A stretch of DNA of 64,000 bases, taken from Pseudoclavibacter sp. RFBB5. GTDB lineage: Bacteria; Actinomycetota; Actinomycetes; Actinomycetales; Microbacteriaceae. Position numbers and translations under genes: made by a program. This document shows, in pieces, positions 1,515 to 16,397 of this stretch. Every line of letters begins with the position of its first letter. The stretch's first letter is position 1. The notes beneath the pieces are model-generated. The model saw nothing but the letters and a program-made list of their open reading frames with translations, made no database searches and was not told where the DNA came from. The stretch is taken from the NCBI RefSeq assembly GCF_002931555.1, contig NZ_PSTZ01000001.1, forward strand, positions 124,001 through 188,000, read 5' to 3'.

Positions 1515-4016
1515 ATGCGTTCCTTCCCACTTCCCGCCTTCGTGCGCTCGCACCGGCGGACGCTCATCGTCATCGTCGGCATCGCGCTCATTCCCCTCAT
1601 CTACGCGGGCTCGCTGATCTGGTCGAACGAGGACCCGACGCACCGCCTCGACCACATCGACGCGGCCATCGTGAACAGCGACCAGGCGGCGACCCCCGCG
1701 ACGACCACCGAGGGGGAGCCGGCAGAACCCGTCGATCTCGGCGCGACGCTCACCGAGAAGCTCGTCGACAGCACCGAGTCGAACAACTTCAGCTGGCACG
1801 AGATGTCGGCGGATGAGGCGCAGAGCGAGCTCGAGTCGGGCAAGGTGCTCGCCGTGCTCGATATCCCGGCGGGTTTCTCGGCGGCGGCCGTCTCGGCGGG
1901 TGGTGACGACCCGCTGGACGCGGCCATCGCTCGCCTCTCCATCACGACCAACGACGGGGCGAACATCATCGTCGGCAACATCGCGTCGACGGTCGGCACG
2001 ACGGTCGCCGACGAGCTGGCGACAGAGGTCTCCGACGAGTACCTCCGCAACGTCTACGTGGGCTTCACCGACATCCACGAGAGCGTCTCCGAGGCTGCCG
2101 ACGGCGCGACCGAGCTCAACGACGGCGCCGAGCAGGCGCGCACCGGCTCTGGCCAGCTCGTCGTCGGGCTCGGCCAGCTGCGCGAGGGCGGGCTCACCCT
2201 CGCCGACGGCAGCGCGACGCTCGCCGACGGGGCGGCTCAGGTGGATGCGGGCGTGCAGCAGCTCAACGCCGGTCTCGTCACCGCCAACTCGGGTGCGCAG
2301 ACGCTCAGCTCCGGCGCCGCGGACGCCAACGCGGGCGCGCAGCAGCTCAGCGCGGGCGCTGCGACCGCGAACACGGGTGCACAGGAGCTGAGCGCGAAGC
2401 TCGCAGAGGCGAGCTCCGGTGCGCAGCTCCTCAGCGATGGGCTCGCGGAGTTGAACTCCAAGACGAGCGACCTGCCTGCGAGCGTCACGACGCTCACGGA
2501 AGGGGCGACGACTCTCGACGCTGGAGCGACGGCTCTCGCCGGTGGCCTCGAGACGGCCCTCGGAGCGAGCAGGGGCCTCGACGACGGCACCACTGCCCTC
2601 GCCGCCGGTGCAGGGGACCTCTCAGGCGGCATCGATTCGCTGCTTGCCGACTACGACTCGCTGTCCGATGCCCAACGCAAGGAACTGCTGACGCAGCTCT
2701 CCACTGCTGGACAGTCCCTCGGCGCGAAGGCCGGCGAACTGAGCGCCGGGACATCCGCGCTCGTCGGTGACGCCGCCGCGGGGACCGGGCTGAGCTACCT
2801 CCAAGCGAAGTCGACCGAACTCGCCGCTGGCGCCACCCAGCTCTCCGACGGCGTCTCACCGCTCAGCGGCAAGGTCGACGAGCTCGTTGCAGCGGTCTCG
2901 ACTGTTTCGACGAAGTCGGCGGAACTCGCCTCCGGAACCCAGCAGCTCTCCACCGGCGCTTCCACGCTCGCGACGGGCACCCAGTCGCTCGCCGACGGAA
3001 CGTCGACGCTGGCGACCGGAACCCAGTCGCTCGCGGACGGCGCATCCTCGCTCGCGACGGGCACGCAGACACTCGCGGACGGCGCATCCACCCTCGCGCA
3101 GTCGACGCCGAAGCTCGCCTCGGGTGCCTCCGAGCTCTCGTCGGGCGCGACAACCCTCGCCGACGGAACCGCCGACGCCGAGTCGGGCGGCGCCGAGCTG
3201 AACGACGGCATCACGCAGCTCGCCGACGGCAGCAAGACGCTCGCGGATGGCCTCGACGACGGGGTCTCCGACATCCCGAGCTACACGGATGCGCAGGCCG
3301 ACCACCTCGCCGGCGTCACGTCGACGCCAGTGGAGATCACGAAGACCCGACTCAACGAGGTGCCCGCGTACGGCTACGGTCTCGCGCCCTACTTCATGAC
3401 GCTCGGCCTCTGGGTCGGCGCGCTCGCCTTCTACCTGATGTTCCCGCCGCTGCGCGAGCGTCTTGTGCTCGGCCGTCAGCCCGCGATTGTCGTGGCGCTG
3501 CGCAGCTTCGCGCCCGGCGCGATGCTCGGCGCCGCGCAGAGCCTGCTCATGCTCACGATCGTCCGCTTCGGGCTCGGGCTCGAACCTGCCGACATGCTCG
3601 GCCTCATCGCGCTGGCGCTGCTCACAAGCGTCACGTTCGTCGCCGTCAACCAGGCCTTCAACGCGCTCCTCGGCCCTCCCGGACGCTTCCTCGCGCTCAT
3701 CATGATCGTGCTCCAGCTCTCCTCAGCCGGCGGCACCTACCCGGTCGAGACGGCACCCGCGTTCTTCCAGCTCATCCACTCGTGGCTGCCGCTGAACTAC
3801 GCCGTCACCGCGTTCCGCTCCCTCGTCGCCGGCGGGTCGATCGGCATCGGGGAGGCGTACGGGATGCTCACCGTCTGGCTCGTCGCGGCCCTCGCCCTCA
3901 CGACGCTGTCGATCGTCATCAAGCGCCGCCGGGAACGCCTGAAGCCGGCCGCAGCACCCGCTCCTGCGCGCATCCCGAAAGCTGCTGTCAGGCGGGCCGC
4001 GGCGTCCGTGACCTAG
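1515..4016 (+). CDS. YhgE/Pip family membrane protein
   Basis: This is an 833-aa protein with the YhgE/Pip (phage infection protein) architecture. It has one N-terminal membrane helix at about residues 15-36, a long extracellular region rich in LADG/LSxGA repeats (about 190-600), and a C-terminal block of about five membrane helices (about 618-810) resembling ABC-2 permeases. Known relatives act as phage receptors or as components of secretion and lipid-related envelope systems; no ATPase is adjacent. The repeats are in 14-residue register around residues 469-552. The gene follows the TetR gene by 14 bp and probably shares its transcript. Its stop overlaps the stop of the convergent GPP34 gene in the shared tetranucleotide CTAG. 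Confidence 0.88.
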   Translation: MRSFPLPAFVRSHRRTLIVIVGIALIPLIYAGSLIWSNEDPTHRLDHIDAAIVNSDQAATPATTTEGEPAEPVDLGATLTEKLVDSTESNNFSWHEMSADEAQSELESGKVLAVLDIPAGFSAAAVSAGGDDPLDAAIARLSITTNDGANIIVGNIASTVGTTVADELATEVSDEYLRNVYVGFTDIHESVSEAADGATELNDGAEQARTGSGQLVVGLGQLREGGLTLADGSATLADGAAQVDAGVQQLNAGLVTANSGAQTLSSGAADANAGAQQLSAGAATANTGAQELSAKLAEASSGAQLLSDGLAELNSKTSDLPASVTTLTEGATTLDAGATALAGGLETALGASRGLDDGTTALAAGAGDLSGGIDSLLADYDSLSDAQRKELLTQLSTAGQSLGAKAGELSAGTSALVGDAAAGTGLSYLQAKSTELAAGATQLSDGVSPLSGKVDELVAAVSTVSTKSAELASGTQQLSTGASTLATGTQSLADGTSTLATGTQSLADGASSLATGTQTLADGASTLAQSTPKLASGASELSSGATTLADGTADAESGGAELNDGITQLADGSKTLADGLDDGVSDIPSYTDAQADHLAGVTSTPVEITKTRLNEVPAYGYGLAPYFMTLGLWVGALAFYLMFPPLRERLVLGRQPAIVVALRSFAPGAMLGAAQSLLMLTIVRFGLGLEPADMLGLIALALLTSVTFVAVNQAFNALLGPPGRFLALIMIVLQLSSAGGTYPVETAPAFFQLIHSWLPLNYAVTAFRSLVAGGSIGIGEAYGMLTVWLVAALALTTLSIVIKRRRERLKPAAAPAPARIPKAAVRRAAASVT
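2919..3170 (+). repeat. In-frame 42-bp tandem repeat (14-residue LATGTQxLADGx units) inside the Pip gene
   Basis: At least six consecutive 42-bp units begin at 2919, 2961, 3003, 3045, 3087 and 3129. The three central units (2961-3086) are nearly identical at both DNA and protein level, for example STLATGTQSLADGT. The outer units are diverged. The strong DNA identity suggests recent unit duplication, so the copy number may vary between strains. Confidence 0.85.
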
Positions 4017-4750
4017 TTGTTCGCCGCGTTGGCGGCGACGCTCGCCGCGACGGCAGCATTGATCGTGATGGCGTTCATGGTGCGGGCGACGGCCGAACTG
4101 GCCGCGGTGGCTCCCCAGTCACCTTGCTCGAGGGCCTTGGCGCGGTTGATGACGTCGGTCTCCCAGGGGATCTCCCGGTGCAGCGTCGGCATCGACCCGC
4201 TCGCGGAGATGAGCGCCGCGAGGGCAGCGGTTCGCGCGTCGGGTTCCGCGCCGTCGATGAGCACGGACTGCACGCGGCTCATGAGCGTGGCACGGCGTCC
4301 CGTATCGCCCAAGCTGAGCGTCGTCTTCGGGATGAACCCGAAGGTCTTGCCCTGCTCGCGGGTGAGGTCGCCGCGGAAGATGAGGCTCTCGAGCAGCTGG
4401 CCGCGGAGGTTCGGCCCGATAGCGGCGAGCATGCCCTGCACCTCGCGCCGCTTCTCCCGCGAGTACTCCCAGGCCGACCGCAGAATCTCGTCCTCGGGCG
4501 CCTCATCGCCGACCGAGAGCACACGCGTGCCGCGAAGCCCCGCCTGCTCGATTCCGATCTGGTCGTTCAAGGCCAACTCAGTGAGCACCGCCCCGCCGAG
4601 CACGTAGAAGAGGGTGCCTTCGCCGCCGATGGTGCCGTCGTCCGGGTTGAAGAGCAGCAGCAAGAGGTCTTCTGCGAGCAGCGGCTGCGGCTCACTGGCG
4701 TGGTCGGCGCCGGTGTCGTCGGCGTCGTGGATGCGGTCGGGCTGTTCCAT
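4013..4750 (-). CDS. GPP34 (GOLPH3-like) family protein
   Basis: This 245-aa soluble protein opens with LLAEDLLLLLFNPDDGTIGG, the characteristic start of the GPP34/GOLPH3 family, and continues with the helical FIPKTTLSLGD and DVINRAKALEQGDWG segments seen in actinobacterial members. The eukaryotic protein binds phosphatidylinositol-4-phosphate; the bacterial role is not established. I chose ATG 4750 (MEQPDRIHD) because AGGGGGAT lies directly upstream. An in-frame extension to 4798 has no ribosome site. A second GPP34 protein is encoded at 15586-16347. The stop codon shares CTAG with the stop of the convergent Pip gene. Confidence 0.82.
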   Translation of the reverse strand: MEQPDRIHDADDTGADHASEPQPLLAEDLLLLLFNPDDGTIGGEGTLFYVLGGAVLTELALNDQIGIEQAGLRGTRVLSVGDEAPEDEILRSAWEYSREKRREVQGMLAAIGPNLRGQLLESLIFRGDLTREQGKTFGFIPKTTLSLGDTGRRATLMSRVQSVLIDGAEPDARTAALAALISASGSMPTLHREIPWETDVINRAKALEQGDWGATAASSAVARTMNAITINAAVAASVAANAANN

Positions 4751-8665: not shown

Positions 8666-8701
8666 TTGACGCAAACTAGTTTGCAGCGCAAACTGGTTTG
8701 C
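8666..8701 (+). promoter_or_regulatory. Promoter with tandem 14-bp palindromic operators
   Basis: GCAAACTAGTTTGC (8671-8684) is a perfect palindrome. GCAAACTGGTTTGC (8688-8701) is the same site with one central mismatch, and their centres are 17 bp apart. TTGACG (8666-8671) looks like a -35, and a CAAACT -10 (8689-8694) lies 17 bp farther on. The second palindrome ends at the base before ATG 8702, so bound protein would block a leaderless promoter. The small winged-helix regulator encoded in the same operon is the natural candidate ligand. Confidence 0.7.
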
Positions 8702-9427
8702 ATGGACATCAACGAACGCCGGACCCCCGCCGATGGCAGCATCCCGCAGGCGAGCGACGACGACCGTGCCCTCGCGCCGAGCGAGATGCTCGCCCTCATG
8801 CGTGACCAGCAGCGCACGACGCGCACCCGGCTCGACCGTGCGCTGTACATCCTCCTCGGCACCTGGGCGGTCGCCTGGTTCGTCGGCTTCCAGGCGCTGT
8901 GGAGTGCCGAGGATGGGGGAGCGAGCCCGATCGTTCGCATCCCCACCGCCACGGCCTTCATCATTTTCGGCGTGGCGATGATCGTCGGCGTCATCGTGTC
9001 GGTGGTCTCCGGCATCTCGATGGGGCGGGGGATGCGCGGCCGCAGCAACACGGCGGGCAAGCTCTACGGCTGGTCCTGGTCGATCTCGATGATGGGCGCC
9101 TGGTTCTTCGCCGCGTCGCTGCTGCGTCAGGTGCAGGACCCGACCCTCGCGCCGCTGCTCATGCCGGGCATCTTCGTCATCACGGTCGGCGTGCTCTACA
9201 TGGCGGGCGCCGCGATGTCCCGCTCCGGCGCGCAGTTCGCGCTCGGGGTCGCCGTCATCGTGCTCGCCGTCGTCGCCACCGCGCTGGGCGCGCCCACCCA
9301 CTACCTCGTCTACGGCACGGCGGGCCCGCTCATCTTCATCGCCTTCATCGTGCTGCTGCGCACGGGGGTCATCTCGAGCGAGCCGCCCCTGCGCGAGACC
9401 ACTCCGCGGGGCGAGGTGCACGCATGA
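8702..9427 (+). CDS. Polytopic membrane protein, first gene of an ABC exporter operon
   Basis: This 241-aa protein has a soluble N-terminus of about 45 residues and roughly six membrane helices, at about 48-67, 82-105, 125-147, 155-175, 180-200 and 203-222. I do not recognise a named family. ATG 8702 is chosen because it sits directly after the promoter and operator palindromes; the frame is open farther upstream, but that stretch overlaps the xth promoter. Its last bases overlap the start of the regulator (ATGA), so it belongs to a four-gene operon with regulator, ABC ATPase and ABC permease. Confidence 0.75.
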   Translation: MDINERRTPADGSIPQASDDDRALAPSEMLALMRDQQRTTRTRLDRALYILLGTWAVAWFVGFQALWSAEDGGASPIVRIPTATAFIIFGVAMIVGVIVSVVSGISMGRGMRGRSNTAGKLYGWSWSISMMGAWFFAASLLRQVQDPTLAPLLMPGIFVITVGVLYMAGAAMSRSGAQFALGVAVIVLAVVATALGAPTHYLVYGTAGPLIFIAFIVLLRTGVISSEPPLRETTPRGEVHA

Positions 9428-9729
9428 GCGACCCGAGCGCCGAGTTCGACCCGATCATCCACGCGCCCGCCCGACTGCGCATCATGACGACCCTCGCCGA
9501 GAGCCTCGACGACGGCGACGAGATGACGTTCTCGAAGCTGCGCAGCCTCCTCGACATGACGGCGGGCAACCTCACGACGCACCTCTCGAAGCTCGAGGAC
9601 GCCGGCTACGTCGTCATCGACAAGGCCTTCGCGGGCCGCAAGCCCGTCACGTATCTGACCATCAGCCCCGCCGGTCGAGCCGCGTTTCGCAGCTACCGGA
9701 CGGCGCTCCTGAAACTCCTCGGGGGATGA
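9424..9729 (+). CDS. Small winged-helix transcriptional regulator (MarR/ArsR-like)
   Basis: This 101-aa single-domain protein has the fold of short winged-helix regulators. FSKLRSLLDMTAGNLTTHLSK is the recognition helix-turn-helix (about residues 38-58), and AGRKPVTYLTISPAGRAAF is the wing followed by the closing helix. Such proteins are often encoded next to ABC exporters and autoregulate. It overlaps the upstream gene by four bases and ends one base before the ATPase gene. The twin palindromes at 8671-8701 are its probable operators. Confidence 0.85.
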   Translation: MSDPSAEFDPIIHAPARLRIMTTLAESLDDGDEMTFSKLRSLLDMTAGNLTTHLSKLEDAGYVVIDKAFAGRKPVTYLTISPAGRAAFRSYRTALLKLLGG

Positions 9730-10737: not shown

Positions 10738-11490
10738 ATGTCCACTGCAGCACTCATCGCCACGCACGTGAAGTACTCGCTCATCGAGACGGCGCGCGTG
10801 CCCATCGCCGTCATCGGGTCGCTCGTCTTCCCGACGCTCGCGTTCTGCTTCTTCGTGCTGCCGCAGCGCGCGATCGCCGAGGATCCGGTGATCGCCACGC
10901 AGGCCGTCGCGTCGATGGTCGTGTTCGCCTTCATGACCAACGGGCTCTTCAGCCTCGGCCTCGACCTGGCTGAGCAGCGCTCGAAGCCGTGGGTGCCGTA
11001 CCTGCGCACCCTGCCGGGGAAGCCGTCCGCGCGCATCGCGGGGCTTGTCATCGGGACGCTCGTGATGGCGGTCGTCTCGATCGTGCCGCTGCTCATCGTC
11101 GGCGGGCTCTTCACGGCGGCCGCCCCGACCCTCATGCAGGTGGTGTTCGGCCTCATCGCGGTGGTGCTCACGGCGGTTCCGTCCGCCCTCATCGGCGCGA
11201 TCGTCGGCACGACCGCGGGCCCGAAGGCGGCGATCGCGATCACGCAGGTGCTCATGTTCCTGCTCGCCTTCGGAGGTGGCCTGTTCCTGCCGCCCATGAT
11301 GTTCCCCGGCTGGCTGGATGCCGCCTCGAAGGTGCTGCCCGTGCGGCAGGCGCGCGAGGTGGTCATCGCGGTGGTCTCCGGCGGGCAGTTCCCGATGTGG
11401 GCGCTCTTCGGCCTCCTCGCGTGGACGGCCGTCCTCGGCTTCCTCGCGGTGTTCTTCTACAAGCGAGACGAGGGCCGGAAGTTCTCGTAG
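10738..11490 (+). CDS. ABC-2 type transporter permease
   Basis: This 250-aa protein has six predicted membrane helices and the ABC-2 organisation, including FGGGLFLPPMMFPGWLDAASKVLP before the last helix, where many drug/antibiotic exporters have their conserved loop. ATG 10738 follows GAGGACC at a suitable distance, five bases after the ATPase stop. It pairs with the ATPase at 9731 to form an efflux system. Confidence 0.9.
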   Translation: MSTAALIATHVKYSLIETARVPIAVIGSLVFPTLAFCFFVLPQRAIAEDPVIATQAVASMVVFAFMTNGLFSLGLDLAEQRSKPWVPYLRTLPGKPSARIAGLVIGTLVMAVVSIVPLLIVGGLFTAAAPTLMQVVFGLIAVVLTAVPSALIGAIVGTTAGPKAAIAITQVLMFLLAFGGGLFLPPMMFPGWLDAASKVLPVRQAREVVIAVVSGGQFPMWALFGLLAWTAVLGFLAVFFYKRDEGRKFS

Positions 11491-11588
11491 GGGCCGTGGA
11501 CAACCTGGCTATGAACGCTGAAAATCTCCATCAATCTGGCCGAAGGAACGCCACTTAGACGGAATCCATGAGAATGGATCTTTCTCGT

Positions 11589-11617
11589 TTGTTGCGGTCC
11601 AGAATCACCGCTACATT
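11589..11617 (+). promoter_or_regulatory. Promoter of the peptide-export locus
   Basis: TTGTTG (11589-11594) and TACATT (11612-11617) are spaced by exactly 17 bp in an AT-rich stretch. They would start transcription near 11624, about 40 bases before GTG 11666. A short inverted repeat ATCCAT/ATGGAT (11564-11569/11574-11579) followed by CTTTCTCGTTT just upstream may end the preceding exporter transcript. Confidence 0.6.
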
Positions 11618-11665
11618 GATCCGCGTCGGCGCAAAGGGGCCCGACTCGGATCGAGGGGTGGCAGG

Positions 11666-12760
11666 GTGAAGCACGCGCAGCCTGGCAACGAAGACGTGGT
11701 CAGCGTCGTGTCGGACAGCGACCGACCTGCCCGGCGCCGGGGCTTCTCTGCCACCGTCGCGCTGGTCATCGTCGCCACGCTGGCGGTAGCCGCATCCCTC
11801 GTCGCCTTCTCCGTCTTCCGCCCCACCCCGCCCGGACTCGCAACCGCCTCCGTGCCTTCAGAAGTGCAACTCGTGGCCGAGGAACTGACCGACGCACGAG
11901 CCGTGGAGCTGACTGCACAGCTGGGTGACGACGCCTCCTTGCCGTCACCGACGAGCGGCACGCTGACCGACTCGTCCTGCACTGCAGGCGGCGACCTCGT
12001 CTCAGGGGGGAGCTCCTTCAAGGTCGGCGAGACTCCGCTCGTGAGTCTCCACACGTCCACGCCGCTCTGGCGGGACCTCAGCTATGGCCTCAAGGGTCCC
12101 GACGTCACCGCACTGCAGGTGGCGCTTGCGGGCCTCGGCTACGACGTGTCCGAGACTGACGCCTTCGACTGGCAGACGTGGTCTGCCTGGGACGACCTCG
12201 TCGAGTCGGTGTACGGCGACACCAAGCAAGGCGAGCTGGCACTCGCACAGGTGCTCTGGCTCCCCTCGGCGACGATCTCGGTGCAGTCCTGCCCGGTCCC
12301 GCTCGGACAGACAGCCGCGCAGGGCGAGGCTCTTGTCGACCTCGCGAACCCACTCCTATCGGCCTCCGTGAAGAGCTACCCGACAGACCTCGTGCCCGGT
12401 GCGCGAAAGCTGACGCTTGAGGGCGTCGACGTCGCGATCGACGAGGCGGGAGCCGTGACGCCTGAAGGGCTCTCCGTGCTGGCCGGCACGAATGCGTTGG
12501 CGAAGTACGCGGCGAGCCCTGACGATGCGAGCATTCAAGCCGAGCTCGTGCTGGTCGGTGCGACCACCGTCTACGCGGTCCCCCCGGCCGCGGTCGCGAT
12601 GACCAGCGAAACAGGTGGATGCGTCGCGACGCCGGACGGCGGGTCGCTCCAGGTGGCCGTCGTGTCCTCGAAGCTCGGTCGCACCTACGTCTCGTTCCCG
12701 GAGCCGCCGACAGCCGCGGCCGTCAAGGCCGTCGCGAAGAAGGACCTGGCATGTTCGTGA
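11666..12760 (+). CDS. Membrane-anchored adaptor-like protein with peptidoglycan-binding motif
   Basis: This 364-aa protein has an N-terminal cytoplasmic basic stretch, one membrane helix at about residues 29-50, and an extracytoplasmic part. The latter contains a clear PG_binding_1 motif, LKGPDVTALQVALAGLGY, at about 144-161. The surrounding beta-rich sequence resembles periplasmic adaptor (HlyD/MacA-like) proteins of Gram-positive ABC systems. GTG 11666 has GAGGGGTGG upstream. Its 3' end overlaps the ABC ATPase start by ten bases. It probably links the exporter to the cell wall. The assignment rests on layout and the one motif. Confidence 0.7.
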   Translation: MKHAQPGNEDVVSVVSDSDRPARRRGFSATVALVIVATLAVAASLVAFSVFRPTPPGLATASVPSEVQLVAEELTDARAVELTAQLGDDASLPSPTSGTLTDSSCTAGGDLVSGGSSFKVGETPLVSLHTSTPLWRDLSYGLKGPDVTALQVALAGLGYDVSETDAFDWQTWSAWDDLVESVYGDTKQGELALAQVLWLPSATISVQSCPVPLGQTAAQGEALVDLANPLLSASVKSYPTDLVPGARKLTLEGVDVAIDEAGAVTPEGLSVLAGTNALAKYAASPDDASIQAELVLVGATTVYAVPPAAVAMTSETGGCVATPDGGSLQVAVVSSKLGRTYVSFPEPPTAAAVKAVAKKDLACS

Positions 12761-13353
12761 CGCTCGCCGACGTCGGACATCGTTACCCCGGCCATCCGCT
12801 GCTCTTCGAGAACGTCTCCGCGCGCCTCGACCCTGGCCGTGTCTACGCGCTCACGGGCCCGTCCGGATCAGGGAAGTCGACGCTGCTCGGGATGCTCGCC
12901 GGCTGGATCCCACCCGTGGTCGGCAACATCACGCGTGTCGGCGTGGAGCGGATCGGCTGGGTGTTTCAGAACCCGCACGGCGTTGCGCGGAGGACGGCGC
13001 TCGACCACGTGGCGCTTGCGTTCGTCGCACGGGGGGAGACAAGAACACGTGCGGATGTTCGCGCTCGGGAACTGCTCGAACGCTTCGGCCTGGGACACGC
13101 GGCCGATCGCCAGTTCAGGGCTCTCTCCGGAGGTGAGGGGCAGCGGCTCATGCTCGCACGCGGCATCGCCGCCGCCCCCGACCTGCTCCTGGTCGACGAG
13201 CCGACGGCGCAGCTCGACCTGCGCACGGCAGCTTCCGTCAGCGACGCCCTCGGGCGCATCGCCACCGACGGCACGATCATTGTCGTCGCCACGCACGACG
13301 CCCGCACGAGAGACGCCTGCACCGACGTCATCGACCTGGGGGTGTTCCAATGA
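12751..13353 (+). CDS. ABC transporter ATP-binding protein (short, MacB/bacteriocin-export type)
   Basis: This is a compact 200-aa ATPase. Walker A is GPSGSGKST, the signature RALSGGEGQR, and Walker B LLLVDEPTAQLD, followed by VVATHDART. The size matches LolD/MacB-type and bacteriocin-export ATPases such as those beside lactococcin 972-like peptides. ATG 12751 overlaps the adaptor stop, and its own stop overlaps the permease start (ATGA), so the three proteins are translationally coupled. It lacks the C-terminal extension seen in the exporter ATPase at 9731. Confidence 0.9.
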   Translation: MFVTLADVGHRYPGHPLLFENVSARLDPGRVYALTGPSGSGKSTLLGMLAGWIPPVVGNITRVGVERIGWVFQNPHGVARRTALDHVALAFVARGETRTRADVRARELLERFGLGHAADRQFRALSGGEGQRLMLARGIAAAPDLLLVDEPTAQLDLRTAASVSDALGRIATDGTIIVVATHDARTRDACTDVIDLGVFQ

Positions 13354-14435
13354 GCGCGATGCGGTTCCGCGAAGTGCGGCGGGAGGCTGGCCGAAACCTG
13401 TCGTCCGGAGCGAGTCGCGCGGTGTTGCTGATGCTGCTTGTCGCCGCCGGCTCAGCCACGCTCGCGGCGTTGGACACTGCCGAGATGACCGGCGTCATCC
13501 GGGCCGCGGAGGACTTCCGCGCTCGTGGCGCATCGATCACAATCCTGGCGGCTGAGGACAGCATCGACGGGCGCGCGTGCGACGCACTCGGCCGGGTGGA
13601 CGGGGTGCGCGCGGCAGGCGCGCTGGCCGAGCGCGAAACGCCGCTCCGCGTGGCGAGCATCCCGCAGAACCCGCTCACCTACTTCGAGTCGTCACCGGGC
13701 TTCGCGACGATGCTCCCCGCCGCGACGGGAGGCACGGAGCCGGGGCTGCTCATGCCGATCGCGGTCGTAGAGACCCTCGGGCTGACCTTGGGTGACCCGA
13801 TCCAGACAGCGGATGGGCCAACGACCCTCGGCGGGACGTACGAGTACCCGGACGACGGGCGTACGACCGGAATGGCGTACGCGGCGATCGCGCCGATCGC
13901 GCCTGACTCCAAATTCGATGAGTGCTGGATCGACGCTTTCCCGGTCTCTCAGGCAACCATCGAGCTGCTCTACACGGCCATCGCGGCCGACTCGAATCTG
14001 CCTGACACGGGGCCGCAGCTGAGCCAGCACAACCTGCAGCTGGGGAAGCCGGTCAACCCGGAGTCTGCGTTCGCCGGAAGGGCGACTGGCGCGTTCCCGC
14101 TCGCGGGCTTCGGCATCGGCGCGATGATCGGCTTCGGGGCCGTCTGGCTGCGGCGGCTCGAGATCGCTTCGGCCTTTCACGTCGGGGTGCAACGAAGCGA
14201 CCAGACGGTGACGCTCCTGCTTGAGGCGCTCGCGTGGTCGTGTGCCGGGGCATTGGTGGCATTCCCTGCGATCGCCCTGCTGACACAGAACCTGGCGGCG
14301 AGTGACCTCATTCCGGTCGCCGCGACCGCCGCTTTGACTCCCGCGCTGACCGTCTCCGGGGCGATCCTCGGAACGCTGGCGGCGGCCCTGCTGGTGCGAG
14401 AACGACGGCTGTTCTCGTACTTCAAGGGTCGTTGA
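13350..14435 (+). CDS. FtsX/MacB-like ABC permease
   Basis: This 361-aa protein has one N-terminal membrane helix (about 24-45), a roughly 200-residue extracytoplasmic domain (about 46-245), then three helices (about 247-265, 285-310 and 325-348). This is the FtsX/MacB topology used to move or release substrates at the outer face of the membrane rather than through a classical channel. The outer domain contains two cysteines, in ACDAL and DECWIDAF. It is coupled to the ATPase and lies 66 bp before the small secreted peptide gene. Confidence 0.78.
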   Translation: MSAMRFREVRREAGRNLSSGASRAVLLMLLVAAGSATLAALDTAEMTGVIRAAEDFRARGASITILAAEDSIDGRACDALGRVDGVRAAGALAERETPLRVASIPQNPLTYFESSPGFATMLPAATGGTEPGLLMPIAVVETLGLTLGDPIQTADGPTTLGGTYEYPDDGRTTGMAYAAIAPIAPDSKFDECWIDAFPVSQATIELLYTAIAADSNLPDTGPQLSQHNLQLGKPVNPESAFAGRATGAFPLAGFGIGAMIGFGAVWLRRLEIASAFHVGVQRSDQTVTLLLEALAWSCAGALVAFPAIALLTQNLAASDLIPVAATAALTPALTVSGAILGTLAAALLVRERRLFSYFKGR

Positions 14436-14501
14436 CGGTACCGGTCAGCGCGGGTCGGCGCCGCCAAGGGGGAGGCGTCGGAACACAGAAAGGGGACGAA
14501 G

Positions 14502-14816
14502 ATGTCCACCATCACACTGAAGAACAAGGTCGGACGCAAGCTCGGCACGCTGCTGCTCGCCGGAGCGCTCGCAACCGGAGGGGTCGCGGTAGCGCAGGTC
14601 GCAGCTGCACCGGAAGCAGAAGCGGCGGTCTGCGGGTCGGTCTCGGCGCGGCCCGGTTACGCCTACGCGAGCAACGGCTGCGGCTATGCGCAGGCCTCTG
14701 TCGGACGCATCGTCAGCGGAAAGGGGAAGTCGGTGACGGCGACCAAGTACCGCGGCTGGGTCTCGGTGTCGTACAAGGCCGGTTCGCACTGGTACTCGCA
14801 GGGCAAGGTCTGGTAG
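14502..14816 (+). CDS. Small secreted two-cysteine peptide, candidate bacteriocin or signalling peptide
   Basis: This 104-aa precursor has a basic N-terminus, a hydrophobic core (about residues 14-36) and a signal-peptidase site near AEA/A at 39-42, leaving a mature peptide of about 62 residues. The mature part has exactly two cysteines (44 and 60) that could form a disulfide. It is rich in Tyr, Trp, Gly and Lys, and ends in tryptophan (GSHWYSQGKVW). GAAAGGGGACGAAG precedes the ATG. Its position behind adaptor, ATPase and permease genes recalls lactococcin 972-type loci, but I cannot align the sequence to that family confidently. A perfect terminator follows, suggesting a separate abundant message. 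Confidence 0.72.
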   Translation: MSTITLKNKVGRKLGTLLLAGALATGGVAVAQVAAAPEAEAAVCGSVSARPGYAYASNGCGYAQASVGRIVSGKGKSVTATKYRGWVSVSYKAGSHWYSQGKVW

Positions 14817-14839
14817 CGCCGAGGGCGGTCTAGTGCAGG

Positions 14840-14870
14840 CGGGGCCCCGCGACCTCAACGCGGGGCCCCG
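14840..14870 (+). terminator. Strong hairpin terminator
   Basis: A perfect 11-bp inverted repeat (CGGGGCCCCGC at 14840-14850, GCGGGGCCCCG at 14860-14870) has a 9-base loop and is followed by CTTCC. It lies 24 bases behind the secreted peptide gene. Confidence 0.8.
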
Positions 14871-14901
14871 CTTCCGAACATCCATTGACGGGGAGAGACA
14901 G

Positions 14902-15540
14902 ATGGTCATTTCACACGCACGATTGATGTGTACGTCGGTTGCCCTGCTCGCGGCGGTCGCACTGACCGGTTGCGCGCAGGCGGACACCTCTGACGAGGGC
15001 ATGACACAGACGGGCGGGTCCCTCACACTGGAGCAACTCCTTGATGAGGGCCTGGCGAACTCGAAATCGGATTTCCAGACGGAGGTGCTCACGGCCGCTC
15101 GTGAGTCCGGGGAGATCTCCGAGGCAGATTGGAAGGAGGGAAACAACCTGAGACTCCAGTGCCTTCAGGAGAAGGGTTTCGACGCCGAACTGCTGTATGA
15201 AGGTGCCGAGGTCTACTTGCAGACGGATGCCGATCCAGGGGCAGCAAGCCCCGACGAAGGGGATTCTGAGCTGCAGGCTGCGGATCTGGACTGTTACGAG
15301 AAGACCAGTGCGTTCATCAACGAGGCATACTCACTCATCAACGGCGGCCAATCTTCGGTGGATCCAGACGAGATGCAGCGTGCCGTACTGCAGTGCCTCA
15401 TCGACCGTGAGCTCGTGCCGGCCGACACCACGTACGAGGAGTTCGTTGCCGACCTCGAGCAGAACGAGGGAAAGCAGTACTCGCCGCAGAGCACCGAAGC
15501 GAACGACCCCGTCGCGGCCTGCTGGATGGAGAACTCCTAG
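14902..15540 (+). CDS. Secreted lipoprotein of unknown function, candidate immunity or accessory factor
   Basis: This 212-aa protein has a lipoprotein signal peptide (hydrophobic core about 11-21, lipobox ALTGC with acylated Cys24). The mature part is acidic, helical and cysteine-containing (LQCLQEKGF, LDCYEK, VLQCLIDREL, AACWMENS), suggesting disulfides. I recognise no family. ATG 14902 has GGGGAGAG upstream. It follows the peptide gene across a strong terminator, so it may be expressed separately or by read-through. A role in self-protection against the peptide is inference from position only. Confidence 0.7.
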   Translation: MVISHARLMCTSVALLAAVALTGCAQADTSDEGMTQTGGSLTLEQLLDEGLANSKSDFQTEVLTAARESGEISEADWKEGNNLRLQCLQEKGFDAELLYEGAEVYLQTDADPGAASPDEGDSELQAADLDCYEKTSAFINEAYSLINGGQSSVDPDEMQRAVLQCLIDRELVPADTTYEEFVADLEQNEGKQYSPQSTEANDPVAACWMENS

Positions 15541-15585
15541 GTGCGTTCGGCGGCGACCTCCAGCCTCGTTCCCTAGCGTCAGGTC

Positions 15586-16347
15586 ATGGACGCCACTGGG
15601 GAAGAGACTGTAACCGCTGCCGTGACCGTGCCACAGGCCGTGTTCCTGCTGGCCCTCGACGATGAGACGGGGAGGCCGCTCGTCGACAGGTCTGCGCTGG
15701 CGCAGGTGCTGTCGGCGGCGGGTCTCGTCGAGCTGATCATGCTCGGGAGGCTCCGCATCGCGGGCCCGACAAAGACCGAGTCGGGGGTGGATGCTGACGC
15801 CAAGCCCGGCACGTTCGTGGCGGTCGGTCAGCCCCTCGACCCGGCTGGTGCTGACGCCGACCTCGAGGCGCTCGTCGAGACCGCCGTCGGTCGCAAGCCG
15901 GACTCGGCGGTGAAGCTCATCGTCGGCTTCGGCGGACCCAAGTCGGAGGCGACGAAGCTCAAGGAGGGCATCGCCGAGGAGTTCGTGGACGCGGGCGTGC
16001 TCGGCCACGAGGAGAAGAAGTTCCTCGGCGGCACGTTCTCGGAACGCTGGCCGCGCGGGGAGAACGCGCAGCTCGAGGACTCCATCCAGGCTGAGGCCAG
16101 GGCACTGCTCACAGGTGAGGTCGAGCCGCGAGAGACCGACCGGGTTGCCGCAGCCCTCGCGCTCCTCCACGCGGTCCGCGTTCTGCCGCGCGTCTTCCCG
16201 GACCTCGACCGTGCATCCATCTCGAAGCGCGCCGAGGAGCTCATCGACTCGGCCGCCGTCGCGGGTGAGCTCGGGAAGATGATCAGGGAGGCGCAGCTCG
16301 TGATGATGACGACCGTCGCGACGCTGGTCATCACGACGCGAGATTGA
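15586..16347 (+). CDS. GPP34 (GOLPH3-like) family protein, second paralogue
   Basis: This 253-aa protein begins after a short tail with VPQAVFLLALDDETGRPLVD and AGLVELIMLGRLRI, the conserved GPP34 core start. It also has the central KLKEGIAEEFVDAGVLGHEEKKFLG segment and a C-terminal MMTTVATLVITTRD resembling other actinobacterial members. It is diverged from the 4013-4750 protein. ATG 15586 lies six bases behind TAGCGT (15574-15579), implying a leaderless transcript. It is convergent with the glutamate dehydrogenase gene, with a hairpin repeat between them. Confidence 0.85.
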   Translation: MDATGEETVTAAVTVPQAVFLLALDDETGRPLVDRSALAQVLSAAGLVELIMLGRLRIAGPTKTESGVDADAKPGTFVAVGQPLDPAGADADLEALVETAVGRKPDSAVKLIVGFGGPKSEATKLKEGIAEEFVDAGVLGHEEKKFLGGTFSERWPRGENAQLEDSIQAEARALLTGEVEPRETDRVAAALALLHAVRVLPRVFPDLDRASISKRAEELIDSAAVAGELGKMIREAQLVMMTTVATLVITTRD

Positions 16348-16397
16348 CAGCTCCCGAGCCGCCGACGCTTGCTGCCTCGGGCCCTGACCTCTGAAAC

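Follow-up and report, generated by a model that had tools for sequence, protein, structure and literature searches.

What is the role of five adjoining genes in an actinobacterial genome that encode an adaptor, an ATP-binding cassette (ABC) ATPase, a permease, a small secreted peptide and a lipoprotein? The question is raised by positions 11666 to 15540 of a 64,000-nucleotide stretch of Pseudoclavibacter sp. RFBB5 (assembly of 3.77 Mb), the whole of which is referred to below as the window. An initial annotation of this DNA had proposed a peptide export and immunity locus and had left two roles for the ABC genes. We consider it probable that the locus encodes a wall-active bacteriocin exported by the general secretory (Sec) pathway, together with a lipoprotein that gives cognate immunity to it and an ABC machine of the MacAB kind that serves self-protection rather than export.

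The five genes are a single insertion and one unit. All five open reading frames (ORFs) are open and lie on the forward strand: the adaptor at 11666-12760 (GTG start), the ABC ATPase at 12751-13353 (200 residues), the putative FtsX-like permease at 13350-14435 (361 residues), the peptide precursor at 14502-14816 (104 residues) and the lipoprotein, a candidate immunity protein, at 14902-15540. Two congeneric genomes (G299 and G073) have 34-36 bases between the genes that flank the locus on either side, against 4068 bases in the window. The block without counterpart there, 11492-15559 (no strand), contains precisely the five genes, its edges (the equivalents of ~11490 and 15560) coinciding with the set, and this coincidence is good evidence that the genes act together. 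The coupling of the first three genes, already noted in the initial annotation, is confirmed by overlaps of 10 bases between adaptor and ATPase and of 4 bases between ATPase and permease.

These three genes had been described as a MacAB-like machine with a peptidoglycan-binding adaptor, a description that the profile searches sustain in part. The ATPase clearly matches ABC_tran (PF00005, E 1.4e-26), its matches to FtsE and TIGR03608 both being sub-threshold. However, the adaptor, which by reading has one N-terminal membrane anchor, reaches 18.2 bits (E 0.0029) against the peptidoglycan-binding PF01471, under the Pfam cut-off of 23, and the window permease has no family match in the Pfam scan. 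PF02687 (FtsX-type) is found in 8/29 permease homologues, the window permease not being among the eight, while Cys77 and Cys192 are invariant among the 29; none of them matches any NCBIfam model at E 0.01, and hence none matches TIGR01654 (bact_immun_7tm). The combination of a putative adaptor, an ATPase and a putative FtsX-like permease resembles that of MacAB and other type VII ABC systems (FtsEX, LolCDE). The window differs from MacAB-type systems in the weak peptidoglycan-binding match of its adaptor, its monoderm host, its separate short ATPase and permease, and a cassette that also holds a peptide and a lipoprotein.

Many other genomes contain this gene set, hence the arrangement is more than chance. 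The window permease finds matches in 32 of 299 Microbacteriaceae genomes, spread over 17 of 85 genera, and a permease profile finds them at the order level in 43 of 347 genomes at E 1e-10; none was found on plasmids. We fetched 34 loci of the family, the window itself not counted and two short matches (G005 and G045) left aside, and 40 of the order, these being the strongest stretches, with weak or short matches below them left out. Adaptor homologues are present in 32/34 family and 39/40 order loci, and adaptor, ATPase and permease are complete in 31/34 and 39/40, i.e. in 70 of 74, partial copies (L070 and L071 in the family set, L195 in the order set) being scored as misses. A homologue of the window lipoprotein lies within the fetched stretch in 67 of these 70 complete loci; in most it is upstream of the adaptor, and in six it follows the permease downstream, the arrangement of the window. 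The adjacency of transporter genes and lipoprotein, part of a check named in the initial annotation, is conserved. The nearest permeases beyond the trio of loci with a window-type peptide, those of L161 and L173, also have the lipoprotein downstream, and no peptide was recognised there.

Concerning the lipoprotein, the ATG at 14902 (212 residues, lipobox LTGC with Cys24) is a likelier start than the hairpin-adjacent GTG at 14833. Besides the lipobox Cys, four Cys (87, 131, 165 and 207) are invariant in an alignment of 34 sequences. The family has no Pfam model, the Pfam scan of the window lipoprotein and peptide yielding sub-threshold matches only, and the predicted structure is mainly helical, with a mean predicted local distance difference test (pLDDT) score of 82. 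Strong matches (E <1e-30) occur in 34 of 298 genomes, 30 of them among the 32 permease-bearing genomes and 4 among the remaining 266 (Fisher value 1.6e-34, which ignores relatedness, the 299 genomes of the permease search and the 298 of the lipoprotein search being treated as the same draw). The hidden Markov models (HMMs) of the lipoprotein and of lactococcin were built partly from the same loci; the checks on them are the Pfam results and this genome-wide search. The strong lipoprotein matches fall at 50 places, 39 of which have the permease no more than 6 kb away. The 11 elsewhere comprise four that adjoin a lone peptide of the lactococcin 972 family, PF09683 (one genus), two that adjoin a two-Cys peptide (another genus) and five without a recognised peptide. 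In L237 and L238, of one genus, a two-Cys peptide like that of L169 adjoins the lipoprotein, with no permease match in either genome. L039 carries two tandem lipoprotein paralogues behind one peptide gene (3208-4553), and at least two lipoprotein genes are also present in L042, L049, L068 and L198.

These peptide-lipoprotein pairs bear on an alternative in which export or release of the peptide is the task of the ABC machine, i.e. after Sec passage a membrane- or wall-bound peptide is pushed out through the peptidoglycan, much as MacAB pushes out periplasmic substrates. That adaptor, ATPase and permease accompany the peptide, that the adaptor has a weak peptidoglycan-binding match and that peptide type clusters on the permease tree (see below) are all in line with it. 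Nevertheless, six peptide-lipoprotein pairs have no adjoining transporter: four of the six genomes, all of one genus, hold a permease match elsewhere (a fragment only in one of them) and the other two hold none at E 0.001. In addition, G322 retains two loci (L163 and L164) whose adaptor, ATPase, permease and lipoprotein are 96-98% identical, with a recognised peptide in one only, and a single transporter family adjoins peptide types without mutual sequence link. We therefore regard export or release by the ABC genes as unlikely. Of the two roles left by the initial annotation, immunity or self-protection is the one we favour, and the peptide export of its title becomes the less likely function of these genes.

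The window and Pseudoclavibacter terrae carry two natural alleles of the block, and their comparison points to the lipoprotein as partner of the peptide. Outside an island at 13350-16349, DNA identity is 93% over 10083 bases, and 150-base bins range over 0.84-0.99, save three gap-bearing bins at 0.71-0.76; a milder dip (0.84-0.89) is seen upstream of the block, at 8700-9450. Within the island identity is 77% overall and 0.45-0.58 across 14700-15300, the deepest divergence, which covers the larger part of the mature peptide together with the N-terminal half of the lipoprotein; the permease and the right-neighbour gene also fall within it, at lesser depth. By gene, identity is 98% for the adaptor (synonymous divergence, dS, 0.05), 95% for the ATPase (dS 0.09), 86% for the permease (dS 0.55), 95% for the signal peptide, 43% for the mature peptide (dS 1.35) and 60% for the lipoprotein (dS 1.28). 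The ratio of nonsynonymous to synonymous divergence (dN/dS) is <1 throughout, the value of 0.47 for the mature peptide resting on few sites. From the alignments, the alleles of mature peptide and lipoprotein would be the outcome of exchange or of old divergence, and their joint divergence would be as expected of a toxin with its matched immunity protein. Because it diverges together with the mature peptide, and because it pairs with peptides elsewhere without a transporter, the lipoprotein is the likely immunity partner.

The same observations bear on the proposal that the peptide is a ligand or regulator, in which an FtsEX-like complex would sense the wall, with the peptide and the lipoprotein adjusting the activity of a wall hydrolase or reporting stress of the envelope. 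The permease family is possibly FtsX-like, FtsE ranks with the best of the sub-threshold hits for the ATPase, the weak adaptor match is to a peptidoglycan-binding model, and no killing activity is known. However, the distribution is patchy (32/299 family genomes, with presence and absence inside a genus), the divergent mature part stands behind a conserved signal peptide, and the bacteriocin-family peptides that occupy the same slot (see below) fit warfare better than housekeeping, all of which makes such a regulatory role improbable in our view.

The slot that the peptide occupies is filled differently in the relatives. The 34 family loci divide into 19 with a lactococcin 972 family, two with a window-type, six with a three-Cys and two with another peptide, and five in which none was found (two of them partial), the window-type, three-Cys and other groups being assigned by eye. 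By the same by-eye grouping, a gene for a small secreted peptide lies close by in 28 of the 31 complete family loci. The Pfam scan returned PF09683 for 15 of 25 slot peptides, a set that excludes L058 as a near copy of L057. In the genome search, 40 PF09683 places were found in 32/298 genomes, and for 19 of these places the permease is no further than 5 kb away. The remaining 21, of which 20 were inspected with 5-kb flanks, mostly show the classical layout: 16 have an ABC ATPase, with a long ORF of 645-737 residues between it and the peptide (a sub-threshold TIGR01654 match in 3/5 tested). The lipoprotein is present in none of these 16 classical loci and in three of the other four inspected places. 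Lactococcin 972 peptides of the Microbacteriaceae thus occur in two settings, the classical one and a window-like transporter locus. A related cassette with a PF09683 peptide is also found in the genus of the window (L067, in G136), its permease being just 27% identical.

Peptide types cluster on the permease tree, requiring 16 changes over five labels against a shuffled mean of 32.6, and among loci with a known peptide the split between lactococcin and non-lactococcin needs three changes, on a quick tree in which 30/66 inner branches are weak. A wider reading, to which we give slightly less than an even chance, is that of an unnamed actinobacterial bacteriocin chassis, in which a constant adaptor-ABC machine and a new family of four-Cys immunity lipoproteins would be combined with unrelated small secreted peptides, swapped together with the lipoprotein. 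If true, the exchanged peptides would be lactococcin 972, window-type beta sandwiches and other Cys peptides, and the lipoprotein family would point to many bacteriocins yet undescribed.

As for the window peptide itself, the translation agrees with its earlier description as a 104-residue precursor with a Sec signal, Cys44, Cys60 and a terminal Trp. The signal (residues 1-41, by reading) has a basic start, a hydrophobic core and an AEA/A site, and precedes a mature part of residues 42-104, whose final Trp is not conserved. A search of 198 other family genomes gave one clear relative, in such a locus of G014 (E 1.7e-19), plus two marginal ones (E 2.5e-4 and 6.8e-4) from genomes that lack the permease, while a profile of the mature part matched only its three seed loci at E 0.001 among 298 family genomes, with no copies elsewhere; homologues away from the ABC genes, which would have spoken against a link, are therefore not the main finding. 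None was found on plasmids (tblastn) or viral contigs. Two further peptides, of L164 and L199, were first grouped with it by eye. Against the three-seed profile, the former, which lacks Cys and lies in a locus of another family, gives E 2e-7 and is a supported relative, and the latter, the best non-seed after it, gives E 0.12, i.e. is alike by eye but not significant. An alignment of whole precursors with hhalign between the window-type and three-Cys groups scored 90%, the signal peptide contributing much.

Placing the window peptide in PF09683 on sequence grounds was considered and rejected, as there is no profile match, either for the peptide or elsewhere in its genome, and hhalign does no better than shuffles; the doubt raised earlier about its likeness to lactococcin 972 was justified. 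Its predicted structure brings the two closer. The AlphaFold2 model of the mature part, obtained from a five-sequence alignment without templates (confidence of the five models 89.4, 83.8, 63.5, 54.9 and 49.6), is a beta fold closest to lactococcin 972, 2LGN, with Z 6.4 and a root mean square deviation of 2.2 over 59/63 residues (next row 3.4), in a comparison covering the 1000 chains ranked highest by Foldseek. We read the model as a lactococcin-972-like fold, with a sequence signal that may have been lost or a fold that may have arisen separately, and not as membership.

The likeness of the locus to those of lactococcin 972 (PF09683, 2LGN; lcn972-orf2-orf3), suggested by the initial annotation from gene order, hence finds support both in this predicted fold and in the transporter relatives that adjoin true PF09683 peptides. 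Both systems have a Sec-type signal, a small beta-sandwich (predicted in the window) and adjoining ABC partners. The window peptide differs in having no sequence match and two Cys near the mature N-terminus, and its partners are an adaptor, a 361-residue permease and a lipoprotein, whereas those of lactococcin 972 are a bact_immun_7tm protein (TIGR01654, 681 positions) and its ATPase. A membrane lipoprotein with an ABC transporter beside a peptide that acts on the wall (putatively so in the window) is also the pattern of LanI/LanFEG immunity (NisI with NisFEG), to which the window is likened by general traits, its lipoprotein having neither a Pfam family nor a fold match in the PDB.

The available parts of the published accounts describe lactococcin 972 as binding lipid II and inhibiting septum formation (PMC9964109), and report that plasmids with the whole cluster raise the minimum inhibitory concentration for the host from 12.5 to 800-1600 arbitrary units (AU)/mL, the two genes not being separated (PMC4055356). 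Peptides of this type are thought to be Sec-exported, and what the B and C genes do is described as unverified in any such locus (PMC11796350). In Brevibacterium, on a genomic island, a PF09683 gene (weak homology) is reported to share its operon with three genes, for an ABC ATPase and two transmembrane proteins (PMC5719810), possibly an earlier sighting of the window layout. Like the window, it sets a bacteriocin gene beside transporter genes, ABC ATPase included; the likeness is one of description, and the accessible text names neither a lipoprotein nor a peptidoglycan-binding adaptor. For Frigoribacterium an annotated cluster of the lactococcin 972 family is described (PMC12823222), and for propionibacteria a differing gene organisation (PMC4289311). 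The five-gene set is not named in the titles and abstract openings of the open-licence papers listed by the searches, subscription papers being outside this scope.

The mechanism that we infer would proceed as follows. The 104-residue precursor would leave the cell via Sec, and its 63-residue mature part would adopt a small beta-sandwich fold containing one disulfide. It would probably be toxic through an action on the wall of close relatives, the most likely target being lipid II, as for lactococcin 972. The lipoprotein, as cognate immunity protein, would intercept the matured peptide at the membrane. Adaptor, ATPase and permease would form a MacAB-like machine, probably peptidoglycan-held, that removes the peptide from the membrane surface or from its target, pumping mainly for protection, and the relatives of this transporter would serve several peptide types.

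A number of results weigh against the bacteriocin-immunity reading. No PDB structure matches the lipoprotein model at E 0.001, which leaves it without a tie to known immunity proteins, and at the loose cut-off of E 1e-5 lipoprotein matches extend to 49/298 genomes. Positive selection is not shown by the allele comparison, and the island may be due to recombination alone. Aligning the mature part with lactococcin 972 by hhalign, 115/200 column shuffles were as good. Only two of the five peptide models are confident, one of the five alignment rows (L199, E 0.12) is not significantly related, the Z of 6.4 is under the tool's caution line of 8, and plain Foldseek ranks 2LGN fourth (E 0.22). Finally, no peptide was found in 29/40 order loci, by heuristics that miss things and with some loci cut by contig ends. 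With this detection limit, the latter count would be in line with transporter loci that give a general defence against foreign wall-active peptides, the linked peptide being a sensor, decoy or passenger; yet a small secreted peptide gene does lie near 28 of the 31 complete family loci, and we hold a general defence to be very improbable.

If a secreted bacteriocin with a cognate immunity lipoprotein is the right reading, the lipoprotein family would mark peptides that bacteriocin profiles miss. The block offers a clean test case: the adaptor-ABC unit and the lipoprotein are separable, natural block-free strains exist, and the two natural alleles differ in mature peptide and lipoprotein with adaptor and ATPase nearly identical.

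Some minor features complete the description. The perfect terminator claimed for the gap between peptide and lipoprotein is a real and strong hairpin of 15 pairs (14837-14873, forward strand; z -3.0 for the stretch 14814-14901), but it lacks a T-run, and the scan for terminators in 11400-15700 lists none; it is a possible terminator or attenuator. The sole promoter-like site of 11400-15700 lies at the left block end (11497-11525, forward strand; 9/12 matches, where shuffles average 0.2 sites) and is weak evidence. The left neighbour is by reading a transporter membrane gene that ends at 11490. The right neighbour, at 15586-16347, encodes a protein with a GPP34 (Golgi phosphoprotein 3) domain (PF05719, E 2.7e-32), is in the same place in the two block-free genomes, and is present in 4/10 genomes of the genus searched, namely those of the window, P. 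terrae, G299 and G073.

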